Positions 25,648 through 32,808 of a stretch of DNA of 33,633 nt are shown here, in pieces; the first letter of the stretch is position 1, and each line of letters begins with the position of its first letter. Below the pieces are notes generated by a model. It did not search any database, was not told where the DNA came from, and worked only from the letters and a program-made list of their open reading frames with translations. The position numbers and the translations under genes were made by a program. Origin of the DNA: Candidatus Tenebribacter burtonii (GTDB lineage Bacteria; Cloacimonadota; Cloacimonadia; Cloacimonadales; TCS61). The DNA lies in the NCBI GenBank assembly GCA_030765625.1, contig JAVCCF010000012.1:1-33633 (forward strand), in the 5' to 3' direction.

Positions 25648-26670
25648 ATGTTAAACGAAAATATTAGATTTATTAGAAAAAGTTTCAGGATAAGACGATT
25701 ACTAAATGCTGTATTAGTTTATCTTTCATATTATATTTCATTAATTACCAGAAAAGCAGTATTCTGGGGTTCGCCACCAGTAGTAATGATAGAACCAACT
25801 AACATATGTAATTTGAAGTGTCCGCTTTGTCCAACCGGTAATGGTACACTAAAGCGAAAGAAAGGTTACATGTCATTTGAAGTTTTTCAAAAAATAATAA
25901 ATGATATAGAAAAAACAGCTTTCATGGTTGTGCTGTGGAATCAAGGGGAACCATATTTAAATAAAGATTTTTCAAAAATGGTAAAATATGCCTCTGACAG
26001 GGGATTGTTTACGCTTGTATCTACAAATGGGAATATTGATTATAATGCGGAAGAAGTAGTTAAATCCGGATTAGATTCAATGATAGTATCCTTAGATGGT
26101 ACAGAGCAGGAAACATATAATAAATACCGTATAAACGGTAAATTGGATAAAGTGCTGGATGGAGTACAGCAAATCGTTGAAGCAAGAAAAAAACTAAACA
26201 GAAAAAACCCATTATTACGATGGCAGTTTTTGGTAATGAAGCATAACGAACATGAAATAGCAGAAATAAAACAACTTTCCAAAGAACTAGAAGTAGATAA
26301 TCTTGAATTTAAGAGTGTTCAAATATATTCCAAAGAGGATATTAAGAAATATCTTCCAACAAATCCGAAATATAGAAGATATAAAGTGAATGGTGATAAT
26401 TTCGAATTGAAATTTGGTATAAAAAATCGTTGCCGTCGTATTTGGACCAATGCTGTGATTAATTGGGATGGAGAAGTTGCAATCTGCTGTTTTGATAAAG
26501 ATGGAGATTTCAAAGTAGGAAATGTGATAGAATCTAAATTAAGCGAACTTTGGAAAAACAAGAAGATTATAAAAGTCAGGAATCAGATACTAACAGATAG
26601 GAAGCAGATTCCTATTTGCAGGAATTGTCTGGAAGGCGTAAAGATAAAAATTGAAGAAACAAAGGTATAA
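25648..26670 (+). CDS. Radical SAM protein with SPASM-type C-terminal cluster domain
   Basis: A 340-residue radical SAM enzyme. The S-adenosylmethionine 4Fe-4S cluster is bound by C54, C58 and C61 in TNICNLKCPLC. The fold continues with 'VLWNQGEPYLNKD' (GGEP-like), 'LVSTNG' and 'SLDGTEQETYNKYR'. The C-terminus has further cysteines (C262, C280/C281, C324, C327, in 'GEVAICCFD' and 'IPICRNC'), as in SPASM proteins that bind extra clusters. The first ~45 residues include a hydrophobic stretch (17-33) and may lie on the membrane. The reaction is unknown: peptide modification or an envelope/sugar role is possible. AAGGAAA precedes the ATG; TTGACA lies at 25602. Confidence 0.88.
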   Translation: MLNENIRFIRKSFRIRRLLNAVLVYLSYYISLITRKAVFWGSPPVVMIEPTNICNLKCPLCPTGNGTLKRKKGYMSFEVFQKIINDIEKTAFMVVLWNQGEPYLNKDFSKMVKYASDRGLFTLVSTNGNIDYNAEEVVKSGLDSMIVSLDGTEQETYNKYRINGKLDKVLDGVQQIVEARKKLNRKNPLLRWQFLVMKHNEHEIAEIKQLSKELEVDNLEFKSVQIYSKEDIKKYLPTNPKYRRYKVNGDNFELKFGIKNRCRRIWTNAVINWDGEVAICCFDKDGDFKVGNVIESKLSELWKNKKIIKVRNQILTDRKQIPICRNCLEGVKIKIEETKV

Positions 26671-27722: not shown

Positions 27723-29285
27723 TTAATAAGATGCCTGATAGCTTATACTGAGTTGATGCTGAAGGTTGGTGTTGTTTATTTTAGTAGCGGAATGACCAAA
27801 TAGTATTTTGTGGTGAGTTAATGGCTGCCATTTTAGAATTGTTTTTATCACGATCTTTTCGGTTTTCTCACCTTCCAACCATGTTGCAGTATCATCGGGT
27901 CTGGTTTTATAATTAATCGTGAAATCATTACCCAAACTTCCTTGTCTTGTATATGAACTATGAATATTTCCGGTTAAATTCTTTAATAATTTATAATTGA
28001 ATTCTCCTGCAACTTGAATCAGATTACTCCCCTCCGGGAATCCAAGTCCTATCCCATCATGCGAGTATTTATTGTGAAGGATCTTATGAGTATACATCCA
28101 AGGGCGAACAGCAGTGAATTCTAATGTTAAGCGAATATTATTTTTTTTGTCGATCCAATATGAATTTCCTAATTGAATTGCATATTTATTTCCCCACCAA
28201 TTGGTGAAAACTTTACTTTTACTCAGCTCATCGAAGATAAAGTTCATATAAAAAGTATTTTTAGCAGAAGGTTTCAAGTTCATCCCACTAAAAATTAGAA
28301 CATTATCTCTATCTCGCAGATTATGCTCAGTAGCGCGCAAAAAAGTTTGTGGTAAAAGATAACTTGGTTCGATGTTTCTTCCGCCATAGATAACTTCTTC
28401 CCCTACGAAGAAATGAACCTTTTCAGTTGGTTCCCAATCTAATTTTTTAACTACGAGATATTTATCATTATAATCTTTATATATTGGTTCGCCAGCATCT
28501 GTCACATTGGTACTGTCAGGAATCAAAGTTCCATGCATTATAGAAATAGAGAATTTTTTAAAATCCAATTTGCCGCTAAAATATCCGTAATCATTACAGT
28601 CATCATTCAATGTCACACTGCCGCCGATATTATTTCCAATAACGTGTGTTCCTCTTCCAACAGTAATAGAACCATATTTCTTCTTGTAAGCAATTTTACC
28701 GCTGACATTATCTATCGAGGTTTGTAAATAATCGTTAGAGTTTTGAGACCAGCTATCAAATATGGGAGACGTTATAATTAAATTTTCATCACCTGTAAAA
28801 TGTCCTGCCCACCAATATCCATCAATAAAAATAGTATTTTCAATATTTGCAAATAACTTTGATCCATAATAAATAAAAGAATAAAAATTCTCTTCGGTAA
28901 TATTTGAAATGTAGTCGGTTCCGGTAAACAGATCAAAGTATAAAAAAGAATCCGAAGGTAGAAAATCATGTTGAATATTGTAGTCTAATAATTTTATTTT
29001 TAACTTGTTTTGAGTATGGATTTGCAGAAAATGTGATGGATCATGTTCATTGGAAAAAAAGTTTATGATAGATTTTTTAAAATGTGCTATAGATGAAATA
29101 GCCAAATCAGATCGTGTGTAATTATCTGGTTTTTTTCTTAGATGTAAGTAAGCATCATCATTGAATTTTTCTTCCAGGAAAGAGAAATGATTCTGAGAAG
29201 TTATCTCAGTTGTATTCCAGTCAATTTCTGATGCTGCTAAATTGATGGAATTAAATGCGATTAAAATTAACAATATTTTTTTCAT
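27723..29285 (-). CDS. Wzi-like capsule-assembly outer-membrane protein
   Basis: A 520-residue exported protein with signal peptide (KKILLILIAFNSINLAAS) and a long strand-rich barrel. The C-terminal segment 'TAVRPWMYTHKILHNKYSHDGIGLGFPEGSNLIQVAGEF' matches the Caps_assemb_Wzi signature, and 'GYFSGKLDFKKFSISIMHGTL' and 'LLPQTFLRATEHNL' are further family-like strands. Wzi in E. coli anchors capsular polysaccharide at the outer membrane. No capsule cluster is visible, so here it may bind another surface glycan. Start ATG 29285 follows AAGAGGA. A minus-strand TTGAC (29336-29340) is a candidate promoter for this gene and the coupled flippase-like gene. Confidence 0.82.
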   Translation of the reverse strand: MKKILLILIAFNSINLAASEIDWNTTEITSQNHFSFLEEKFNDDAYLHLRKKPDNYTRSDLAISSIAHFKKSIINFFSNEHDPSHFLQIHTQNKLKIKLLDYNIQHDFLPSDSFLYFDLFTGTDYISNITEENFYSFIYYGSKLFANIENTIFIDGYWWAGHFTGDENLIITSPIFDSWSQNSNDYLQTSIDNVSGKIAYKKKYGSITVGRGTHVIGNNIGGSVTLNDDCNDYGYFSGKLDFKKFSISIMHGTLIPDSTNVTDAGEPIYKDYNDKYLVVKKLDWEPTEKVHFFVGEEVIYGGRNIEPSYLLPQTFLRATEHNLRDRDNVLIFSGMNLKPSAKNTFYMNFIFDELSKSKVFTNWWGNKYAIQLGNSYWIDKKNNIRLTLEFTAVRPWMYTHKILHNKYSHDGIGLGFPEGSNLIQVAGEFNYKLLKNLTGNIHSSYTRQGSLGNDFTINYKTRPDDTATWLEGEKTEKIVIKTILKWQPLTHHKILFGHSATKINNTNLQHQLSISYQASY

Positions 29286-29463
29286 AAATCCTCTTTTTTG
29301 ATTAATAATATTTAATGTTAAAATTGAGATATGATGTCAAGAAAAAGGTAATTAGGAATATAGGAACAAATATATTAATATTAAAATTGTGATAATTAAT
29401 CTAATTAATGACTTGACTGGACTTTAAAAGAAAAACCGTTTAACGAAAAAACTGAGGTTGAAG

Positions 29464-32430
29464 ATGGATTTGAAAGAACTGAACTATTATTATAATAAAT
29501 TTAAATTTGGAGAAGATAATTTCCATGAACTTATGAAGAAAAAAGTAAATGAAATCTTGCTTGTTTCTACATTTTATGATGCTTATATTTTTGAACAAGA
29601 TGGAAGACTTTCGGAACAGATACATGGTGAATATATGCAGCTTAACTTAAGTACAGCACCGAGAATAACCAGTGTACCTACCGGTATTCAAGCACTTGAA
29701 CTCCTTAAAAATAAAAGGTTTGATCTTGTTATAACAATGATGCGGATAGGTGAGATCAGTCCATTCAAATTAAGCAAGAAGATAAAGAAAAAATATCCTG
29801 ATCTTCCAATACTACTTCTCATTAATGTTCCTAATGATGTTGGCTTGATAGATAAAGAAAGCGAAGAGATGAAATATATTGATAATGTTTTCAGTTGGAA
29901 TGGTGATAGTAAAATATTTCTTACGATGATCAAATATGTAGAAGACAAATGGAATGTTAAAAATGATACCGAAATCGGACAAGTTCGGGTTGTATTGCTG
30001 GTTGAAGATTCTATTTATTATTACTCAATGTTCCATCCATTACTATATTCAGAAATACTTAAGCAAACTCAACGACTTATTAATGAAGAAATTGTTGATA
30101 TTAATAAAAGAAACCGAATGCGAGGGCGTCCTAAAGTGCTGCTTTGTCACTCATTTGAAGAAGCAATAAACATATATGAACAATATAAGGAATATGTAAT
30201 TGCGATTATATCTGATATTAGATATAAATACAGAGGAAAGATACACCCTAAAGCCGGTATTAAATTGATAAAACATATGCAGATGCATAATGTTGAGTGT
30301 CCAATATTGTTGCAATCTTCAGAATCAGAAAATGAAAAAGATGCGAAAGAACTCGGGGTTAGCTTCCTCAACAAAAATTCTAAAACTCTTCTCCGTGATC
30401 TACAAAAATTTATTTTGGAAAACTTAGGTTTCGGTGATTTCGTCTTCAGGGATAAAAATGGGAATGAGCTTGATCGTGCAGATTCTCTAGAATCATTTGG
30501 GGAAAAATTAAAAACCATAAAAGATGAATCTTTGATCTTTCACAGCAATCATGATCAATTTTCTACTTGGTTGACGGCTCATAGCGAATTTATTTTTTCT
30601 AAGCGAGTAAAAAATATTAATGTTGAAGATTTTAATAATATCAGAGATTTCAGGAAAACTCTTATTGCTTTGTTTAAAGAAGTTCAACATGTAAGAACAC
30701 GAGGGAAAATTCTACAGTTCGATAAAAATGCTTTAAACATAGAGGGAGGAATCATCAGGCTTGCAGAAGGTTCATTCGGTGGGAAAGGACGTGGACTAGC
30801 TTTTTTGAATTCTCTTTTTGTTTCAATGGATATTGAAACAAAATTCGAAGATGTTAGTATAAAAATTCCTAAAACATTTATGATAGGAACAAGTGAATAT
30901 GACAGGTTTTTAGAGAGAAATAATATTGGATCGTGGTTAGTAGATAAAAGTGACCATGAAATAAACACAATTTTTGCTGAAGGAGATATTTCTCCAGAGT
31001 TGAGTGATATTCTAGTTGATTTTGTAGAAAAAGTGGATTACCCGATTGCGGTTCGTTCATCAGGACTGTTGGAAGATTCTCAATCTCAACCATTTGCAGG
31101 TGTATACAATACCTTTATGCTTCCCAATAATAACGAAGATAGATCTATCAGGGTAAAGCAAATTGAGACCGCTATTAAGCTGGTTTTTGCTTCAGTTTAT
31201 TTAAAGACTGCCAGGAATTATCTGGAGAGCATTAATTATAAACTTGAAGAAGAAAAAATGGCAGTGATCATTCAAGAATGTGTTGGTGATGAAGTTGAGG
31301 GTTATTACTATCCACATTTTTCAGGAGTTGGTCAATCTTATAATTTCTATCCAACCTCATACTTAAAAAATAGTGATGGAATAGTTTCTCTGTCAGCTGG
31401 TTTAGGTAAAGCGATAGTTGAAGGTGACAGAACTTTTAGATTCTCACCAAAATATCCTAAAATGGAACTTCTTTCTCAAGATGAACTTTTAAGAGAATCT
31501 CAGAAAGAACTTTATGCGATAGATCTGAGTAATCAGGATTATTGCTCAATTGATTATGAAAAGGAAACAATTAAAACATTAAAGATCAAAGAAGTTGTTA
31601 AACACAAGACTTTAGATCATATTGTCTCAACCTGGGATTTTGAGTACAATAGATTAGTGGATGGGGCAGATACACCAGGACCTAAAATAGTTACTTTTGC
31701 TGATATTGTGAAAAGTAACTATTTCCCGCTGGCAGAGATCTGTGATAATATCCTAGAAATCGGTGAAAATGCGATGGGAGTTCCAATTGAGATTGAGTTT
31801 GCCGTTAACCTGAACAGTGATATTAAAAATGGAATTAAGCCTACTTTCTATGTACTTCAGATCAGACCACTTACGATTAATAAAGATGAGATATATATAG
31901 ATTCTGATAATCTAGATATGAAACAATTATGCCTTTATACGACAAGTGGAATGGGAAATGGAGTGATATCCAATATCAATGATATAATTTTTATTGATCC
32001 CGATAAATTCGATAGATTAAAAACACTGCAAATGCAAGAAGAGATTGCTTATCTTAACAAAAAGATGAAAGATCTAAATAGACAGTATATCCTTATTGGT
32101 GCAGGCAGATGGGGTTCTCGTGATAGATTTTTAGGTATTCCTGTAAAATGGCACGAAATAAACAAAGCAAAAATAATTGTCGAGGCTGGTATGGAAGACT
32201 TTATTGTTGATGCTTCGCAGGGAACACACTTCTTCCATAATCTCATTTCAATGAATACAGGTTATTTTACAGTACCTTATGATTCCAAAACAGATTTCAT
32301 TGATTGGGAATGGCTGAAAAAACAGCCTGTTGAAGAAAAAACAGATCATTTTATCCATATTAAAACTGATGACCCTACTGTTATAAAAATGGATGGGATA
32401 AATGGTATTTCCTTTATTTATAAAAATTAG
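29464..32430 (+). CDS. Dual receiver-like, PEP-synthase ATP-grasp (PPDK_N) protein
   Basis: A 988-residue cytosolic protein. Residues 30-160 resemble a response-regulator receiver, but the phospho-acceptor site is a methionine ('LVITMMRIG'), so it is degenerate. Residues 174-322 form a second receiver with E181/D182 (VEDS), acceptor D251 (IISDIR) and K304: complete. From about 430 comes the PPDK_N ATP-binding part: GSFGGKGRG (K441), VRSSGLLEDS (R531), then the 'QIRPL' end. The swivelling phosphohistidine domain and PEP-binding barrel of PEP synthase are absent. Instead there is a C-terminal domain with 'GAGRWGSRD', 'GIPVKW' and 'DASQGTHFFHN', conserved in FCB-group relatives of unknown function. 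ATG 29464 is chosen because GAGG lies at 29454-29457. Confidence 0.85.
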   Translation: MDLKELNYYYNKFKFGEDNFHELMKKKVNEILLVSTFYDAYIFEQDGRLSEQIHGEYMQLNLSTAPRITSVPTGIQALELLKNKRFDLVITMMRIGEISPFKLSKKIKKKYPDLPILLLINVPNDVGLIDKESEEMKYIDNVFSWNGDSKIFLTMIKYVEDKWNVKNDTEIGQVRVVLLVEDSIYYYSMFHPLLYSEILKQTQRLINEEIVDINKRNRMRGRPKVLLCHSFEEAINIYEQYKEYVIAIISDIRYKYRGKIHPKAGIKLIKHMQMHNVECPILLQSSESENEKDAKELGVSFLNKNSKTLLRDLQKFILENLGFGDFVFRDKNGNELDRADSLESFGEKLKTIKDESLIFHSNHDQFSTWLTAHSEFIFSKRVKNINVEDFNNIRDFRKTLIALFKEVQHVRTRGKILQFDKNALNIEGGIIRLAEGSFGGKGRGLAFLNSLFVSMDIETKFEDVSIKIPKTFMIGTSEYDRFLERNNIGSWLVDKSDHEINTIFAEGDISPELSDILVDFVEKVDYPIAVRSSGLLEDSQSQPFAGVYNTFMLPNNNEDRSIRVKQIETAIKLVFASVYLKTARNYLESINYKLEEEKMAVIIQECVGDEVEGYYYPHFSGVGQSYNFYPTSYLKNSDGIVSLSAGLGKAIVEGDRTFRFSPKYPKMELLSQDELLRESQKELYAIDLSNQDYCSIDYEKETIKTLKIKEVVKHKTLDHIVSTWDFEYNRLVDGADTPGPKIVTFADIVKSNYFPLAEICDNILEIGENAMGVPIEIEFAVNLNSDIKNGIKPTFYVLQIRPLTINKDEIYIDSDNLDMKQLCLYTTSGMGNGVISNINDIIFIDPDKFDRLKTLQMQEEIAYLNKKMKDLNRQYILIGAGRWGSRDRFLGIPVKWHEINKAKIIVEAGMEDFIVDASQGTHFFHNLISMNTGYFTVPYDSKTDFIDWEWLKKQPVEEKTDHFIHIKTDDPTVIKMDGINGISFIYKN

Positions 32431-32447
32431 TACCATGTGGAGCACAA

Positions 32448-32759
32448 TTGAAATTAGAAGAACTAAATAAATATTATAATAAATTCAAATTTGGTGAAGA
32501 TATTTTTCACCATTTAATTTTACAATCTTTACAGAAGAAGATAAAATAATTCAACTGGCAAATGGTTCATTAGGTGGAAAGGGAAGAAGTTGATGAAAGA
32601 CTTCATAACATTATGATCGTCATTTATGAACAGTGTGTGAAGTGTGGAGAAGAAGGTGATTTCATTAACTACGTTAAGGGTGCAAATATTGCCGGATTTA
32701 TCAAAATTGCGGACTCAATGTTAGAATCACGGAATAGTATAAACACATCTTATAAATGA
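32448..32759 (+). pseudogene. Composite pseudogene: receiver-PPDK_N start, ATP-loop piece, and gdhA 3' end
   Basis: Three fragments lie in a row. TTG 32448, with GGAG before it, encodes a 33-residue peptide matching the first ~25 residues of the preceding gene ('LKLEELNKYYNKFKFGEDIFHHL'), ending at TAA 32547. In another frame, about 32535-32588 reads 'EDKIIQLANGSLGGKGRS', matching residues 430-443 of that gene. From about 32578, 'REEVDERLHNIM...FINYVKGANIAGFIKIADSML' is the carboxyl end of an NADP-type glutamate dehydrogenase, stopping at TGA 32757. So a paralogue and a gdhA copy lost their interiors and were joined. None of the fragments is likely to be functional. Confidence 0.8.
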
Positions 32760-32770
32760 AGATAAGTCCT

Positions 32771-32808
32771 CAAGAAATTGAAGGCTTTTTTATTGCCTTA
32801 ACTTCTTG
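32771..32808. repeat. Imperfect hairpin after the gdhA-like fragment
   Basis: CAAGAA...AAGGC (32771-32785) pairs with GCCTT...TTCTTG (32795-32808), with one mismatch and one bulge. The loop is T-rich. It may be the old terminator of the lost gdhA copy; the T-run lies in the loop rather than after it. Confidence 0.4.

Follow-up and report, generated by a model that had tools for sequence, protein, structure and literature searches.

PEP synthase (PpsA) and pyruvate phosphate dikinase (PPDK) combine an ATP-grasp domain with a swivelling phosphohistidine domain and a PEP/pyruvate barrel. Rifampin phosphotransferase (RPH, e.g. PDB 5hv1) carries a C-terminal phosphohistidine domain and a rifampin-binding domain, and in phenylphosphate synthase (PpsA/PpsB) the parts of PEP synthase are split over separate polypeptides. 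Fusions of a receiver (REC) with PPDK, of a Bacteroides-like type, are recorded in a response-regulator census (PMC5847659), and receivers without the aspartate are likewise recorded in fusion with PPDK effectors (PMC4395418). The accessible parts of these two papers give no function, C-terminal domain or glutamate dehydrogenase (GDH) link for such fusions. Here we describe a protein of this kind, called copy A, encoded in a stretch of 33,633 nucleotides from Candidatus Tenebribacter burtonii (contig JAVCCF010000012.1), hereafter the window. The features of the locus are as follows.

29464 to 32430, + strand: coding sequence of copy A, 988 aa, ordered REC-REC-linker-PPDK_N ATP-grasp-C-terminal domain (open reading frame and Pfam)
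29548 to 29943, + strand: REC1, degenerate receiver, residues ~29-160 (Pfam Response_reg, residue counts)
29980 to 30438, + strand: REC2, intact receiver, residues ~173-325 (receiver folds in the model, residue counts)
30214 to 30216, + strand: codon of Asp251, predicted phosphoacceptor of REC2 (residue counts)
30451 to 30699, + strand: linker, residues ~330-412, weakly similar to DUF5752 (Pfam, E 0.13)
30751 to 31872, + strand: ATP-grasp domain of PPDK_N type, residues ~430-803 (Pfam, fold, residue conservation)
31906 to 32427, + strand: C-terminal domain, residues ~815-988, without sequence or fold match (alignment, predicted model)
32227 to 32229, + strand: codon of His922, within SQGTHFFHN (alignment)
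32434 to 32591, + strand: remnant of tandem copy B, its first ~27 codons plus codons ~427-451 (89-90% nucleotide identity to the related locus L003)
32570 to 32801, + strand: remnant of the gdh1 3′ end and downstream spacer (78% nucleotide identity to L003 12128-12354)
32901 to 33633, + strand: glutamate dehydrogenase gene, orthologue of gdh2, which runs past the window end

The copy A reading frame starts at an ATG and is free of internal stops in the window, with an alternative in-frame TTG start possible at 29458. It does not arise by chance, since genes in many independent genomes encode proteins with 63-85% full-length identity to its product. With numbering from the TTG, Pfam assigns residues 66-121 to Response_reg and 439-811 to PPDK_N (E 1e-38); the PPDK_N (PF01326) score of 133.7 bits, against a curated cut-off of 27, assigns copy A to that family. 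An AlphaFold model of the whole protein (pLDDT 84) comprises two receivers, a helical linker, the ATP-grasp and a separate C-terminal domain, with the boundaries set by our reading of secondary structure. In homologues the DUF5752 resemblance of the linker is seen at E 0.003 and 0.0008, under the Pfam cut-off. The ATP-site residues K441, R531, D538, E776 (Asp in class 3), E778 and Q799, which we take to match those of PPDK, are kept in every class sampled. Pfam and residue counts thus agree with a first-pass annotation made from the sequence alone, which had read the protein as one degenerate and one intact receiver coupled to a PEP-synthase-type ATP-grasp. On this sequence basis we infer an ATP-using, signal-controlled enzyme, and likewise infer its chemistry.

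The two receivers differ consistently. At position 91, the phosphoacceptor position of REC1, copy A has Thr and the 54 aligned relatives have mostly Thr, Ile, Leu or Phe and never Asp, so REC1 is degenerate throughout. REC2 of copy A keeps the receiver residues E181, D182, D251, S285 and K304. Asp251 is present in 44 of the same 54 relatives, and all ten exceptions are the second copy of a tandem pair (‘copy B’); these paralogues carry Asn at 251 (10/10 sampled) and Ser or Asn at 182. Second copies in another Cloacimonadota family also lack the REC2 Asp251, having Asn or Ser. In tandem pairs, therefore, one copy has a receiver that could be phosphorylated and its partner does not, and the systematic loss of Asp251 from second copies is as would be expected for a switchable and a non-switchable partner. 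Additionally, a response regulator gene of the NarL/LuxR type adjoins the family gene in five Bacteroidales loci (L021:277-936, L030, L031, L041 and L047).

The window retains traces of such a pair. Relatives such as L003 have the gene order A-B-gdh1-gdh2, and the composite pseudogene that the first-pass annotation had noticed downstream of copy A is real: two pieces of copy B (32434-32518 and 32512-32591, matching codons close to its beginning and around its middle) are followed by the end of gdh1. The suggestion that a second copy once stood next door and that the family duplicates is thereby upheld, and relatives of this copy identify it as the receiver-dead paralogue. On the simplest account, two deletions would have taken out the receiver-dead copy B together with one GDH gene and left copy A with gdh2. 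More gdh fragments, one of them with stops, lie at a contig start in the same genome (C132:1-669 and 1970-2122; L161, L163), and a genome of the same genus (G094), in which the family is absent, has a similar gdh match (4-669) at a contig start. Upstream in the window are a Radical SAM/SPASM protein that resembles cofactor or peptide maturases (25648-26670), far under the curated cut-offs of the listed families, and a 520-aa protein that begins like a signal peptide and matches nothing in Pfam (27723-29285, − strand). In 10 further Cloacimonadota loci, a homologue of the latter is likewise encoded upstream of the family gene.

Among Cloacimonadota, 98 of 125 genomes have the family, and among Bacteroidales 55 of 60; further members occur in MAGs labelled WOR-3, Delongbacteria, Planctomycetota, Neomarinimicrobiota and Proteobacteria and in an Asgard archaeon. 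In many Bacteroidales members the N-terminus is extended by ~170 aa or more, a region in which Pfam recognizes no domain, and receiver-less short forms of the family are 33-38% identical.

Its recurrent neighbour is GDH. When genes neighbouring about 55 homologous loci were clustered, gdh-type genes were found in the 6 kb flanks of 34. This cluster of ~450-aa proteins, identified as GDH by Pfam and NCBIfam, is the sole cross-phylum cluster at such frequency in the set, and the next largest covers 11 loci, in Cloacimonadota only. Where family gene and gdh share a contig, the two lie within 4 kb in 28/30 cases in Bacteroidales (20 genomes) and within 3.5 kb in 75/83 cases in Cloacimonadota (47 genomes), and a proteobacterial MAG also has them side by side. 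Placement varies: downstream gdh genes are either on the same strand as the family gene or convergent with it, and upstream ones are divergent. Short forms without receivers lie next to a GDH of another, archaeal-like type, which shares ~32% identity with the GDH of receiver-bearing loci, in a cluster ordered gdh-short-long, and in a tree of the shared core GDH-adjacent members occupy nearly every deep branch. In one Cloacimonadota family, a second gdh accompanies a second family gene in 21/23 against 5/27 among the matches listed; this association (Fisher p=1.8e-7, uncorrected for shared ancestry, from a table built by hand from those matches) is supportive only. The pairing has exceptions: the Asgard member has its gdh ~290 kb away, many members lack an adjacent gdh (for example in several Cloacimonadota genomes), and some GDHs occur without a family member. 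Comparing the gdh beside the family with the gdh elsewhere in the same genomes (twenty sequences, four of them wrong-frame ORFs) separated the two into distinct clades with many differing positions, among which no single modification site stands out. Taken as a whole, a functional link between the family and GDH is well supported, and we hold it with high confidence. The first-pass annotation had suggested a neighbourhood survey for a stand-alone phosphohistidine protein or histidine kinase, neither of which is conserved in the clustering of the ~55 loci. In some Bacteroidales, flavin/Fe-S NAD(P)H oxidoreductase genes lie downstream of the family gene (L026, L027, L031, L050, L021, L022), encoding either subunits with DHODB_Fe-S_bind, Fer4_20 and Pyr_redox_2 domains or a NuoF-like protein together with a molybdopterin oxidoreductase.

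Only ~175 residues remain after the ATP-grasp in copy A, and they hold the motifs GRWGS, GIPV and SQGTHFFHN, which had already been marked as conserved from the sequence alone and are indeed kept in distant homologues. In an alignment of 72 C-terminal domains, in which short forms lacking receivers and a longer, third class were included, His922 is invariant (72/72, all classes), as are F923, G884 and G891, and GRWG and SxGxHFFxN are nearly so. Folded alone, the domain yields a confident model (pLDDT 88, pTM 0.87), for which a viral fold library held nothing significant and Foldseek returned no PDB match at E<=0.001. A PDB sequence search with the domain profile gave only longin/VAMP7 matches, at E>=0.13, which were judged to be weak chance matches. 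A confident fold without structural match would be a new module of the PEP-synthase superfamily. A swivelling domain was looked for within residues 640-988, and by hhalign the C-terminal domain reached at most 3% probability against those of PPDK, enzyme I and a ~1,370-aa Cloacimonadota family, whereas these three families, as a positive control, detect each other at 97-99.7%. The ~1,370-aa protein (L164-L170) has its phosphohistidine domain (GGATSHAA) at the extreme C-terminus. Pfam likewise found neither PEP-utilizers (PF00391) nor PEP-utilizers_C in copy A at E<=1. The missing swivel and barrel had therefore been recognized correctly; the wording ‘without the catalytic histidine’ holds for a recognizable swivel and is too strong for the protein, because the C-terminal domain has an invariant histidine of its own. 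With no homology to a swivelling domain found, the case for a phosphohistidine role of His922 comes from its invariance.

There are several possible explanations of what the protein does. One possible hypothesis takes the C-terminal domain for a swivelling phosphohistidine domain that has diverged strongly and in which His922 transfers phosphate to a separate acceptor; copy A would then be a shortened PEP-synthase-like enzyme, which would be compatible with an action on GDH. Besides the invariance of His922, this draws on the predicted model, where His922 starts a helix after a strand and the elements are ordered two strands, helix, strand, helix, strand, His-helix, strand, strands, presumably much as in a swivelling domain. 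We keep the idea as a rival for this similarity of order, and we consider it unlikely in view of the hhalign result, the absence of PF00391 and a best Foldseek E of 0.08 with PPDK, enzyme I and PEP synthase absent among the PDB matches listed. A reading of SQGTHFFHN as a diverged GGxTSH phosphohistidine motif is unsupported by three methods. That copy A is an isozyme of PEP synthase or PPDK is extremely improbable: it does have the PPDK_N domain, but lacks both PEP-utilizers domains, and a separate complete PPDK (~903 aa) encoded elsewhere in the genome means that copy A is not its PPDK. A protein of the size of PTS enzyme I is also encoded elsewhere. Single-protein PEP synthesis by the known reaction is refuted, as the first-pass annotation had already concluded, both defining domains having been sought and not found.

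A metabolic role deserves more weight, although we regard it as doubtful. The ATP-grasp would activate glutamate, 2-oxoglutarate or another metabolite, the C-terminal domain would bind the substrate, by analogy with the middle domain of RPH, and the receivers would tune flux. Most relatives with PPDK_N act on small molecules, as phosphotransferases or ligases (PEP synthase, RPH, prodigiosin ligase), oxidoreductase genes adjoin some Bacteroidales loci, and the pairing with GDH suits a pathway equally well. However, phosphotransfer relatives with the same ATP-grasp use a swivelling His domain, which was not found in copy A, the clustering yields no common third pathway gene, and the presence of one dead receiver in the pair points to regulation. 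The adjacency might also reflect only a shared operon or promoter history, with a protein that senses nitrogen or energy state in a role unrelated to GDH. Members without a neighbouring gdh are consistent with this, yet GDH genes of distinct lineages are paired with the family repeatedly, in different orientations, in several phyla and also in branches without receivers; hitch-hiking would not predict this, and we think such a history quite improbable as the whole explanation.

We favor an ATP-grasp phosphotransferase that, gated by its receivers and dependent on ATP, regulates or modifies GDH, and give this reading about an even chance of being correct. An unlinked kinase would phosphorylate Asp251 of REC2, which would act as the switch and change the activity of the ATP-grasp; this domain would bind ATP and pass phosphate on, perhaps via His922; the recipient would be GDH or a target or factor bound to it, and GDH activity would thereby follow nitrogen or energy state. 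The fullest version, a widespread GDH control system in which a receiver-gated ATP-grasp relays phosphate through His922 to GDH and switches it on or off, is a tentative proposal that we expect is more likely to fail than to hold in every part. Reversible inactivation of GDH has been reported for Bacteroides fragilis, and we know of no enzyme identified behind it; the present family may be the missing factor. A literature search of partial coverage returned nothing relevant on reversible GDH inactivation or GDH phosphorylation. GDH links carbon and nitrogen metabolism, and little is understood of how bacterial GDHs are controlled post-translationally. If the proposal is true, a dedicated ATP enzyme under signal control beside gdh would be a general regulatory layer in Bacteroidales and other phyla, and since Bacteroidales includes major gut bacteria, this layer would be testable in culturable strains.

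Of the interpretation first drawn from the sequence, the layout, the missing domains and the duplication stand. Its main gap is the adjacency to gdh, and its claim of an undescribed system does not hold in the strict sense, because REC-PPDK fusions are in earlier censuses (PMC5847659, PMC4395418) and, as far as the accessible parts of these papers go, resemble copy A in joining receivers, some of them aspartate-less, to a PPDK-type domain. Relative to those parts, what is new here is the C-terminal domain, the GDH link and the resolution of a tandem live/dead receiver pair. With PEP synthase and PPDK copy A shares the ATP-grasp, including the K, R, D/E, E, Q and R/K positions, and differs in having N-terminal receivers and a different C-terminal domain in place of the undetected swivel and barrel. 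Foldseek matches the whole model best to RPH (E 4.8e-13) and PPDK, then to receiver proteins. As in RPH, an ATP-grasp is joined to a non-barrel domain, but neither the phosphohistidine nor the rifampin-binding domain of RPH is recognized in copy A, which scores 18.4 bits on the NCBIfam RPH model against a cut-off of 999. In contrast to the split PpsA/PpsB, a stand-alone phosphohistidine protein is absent from the conserved neighbourhoods of the family, whose recurrent neighbour is GDH. Copy A may work as a PEP-synthase-type phosphotransferase while being no PEP synthase, and the repeated adjacency to gdh across several phyla makes the family probably an undescribed regulator or partner of GDH.
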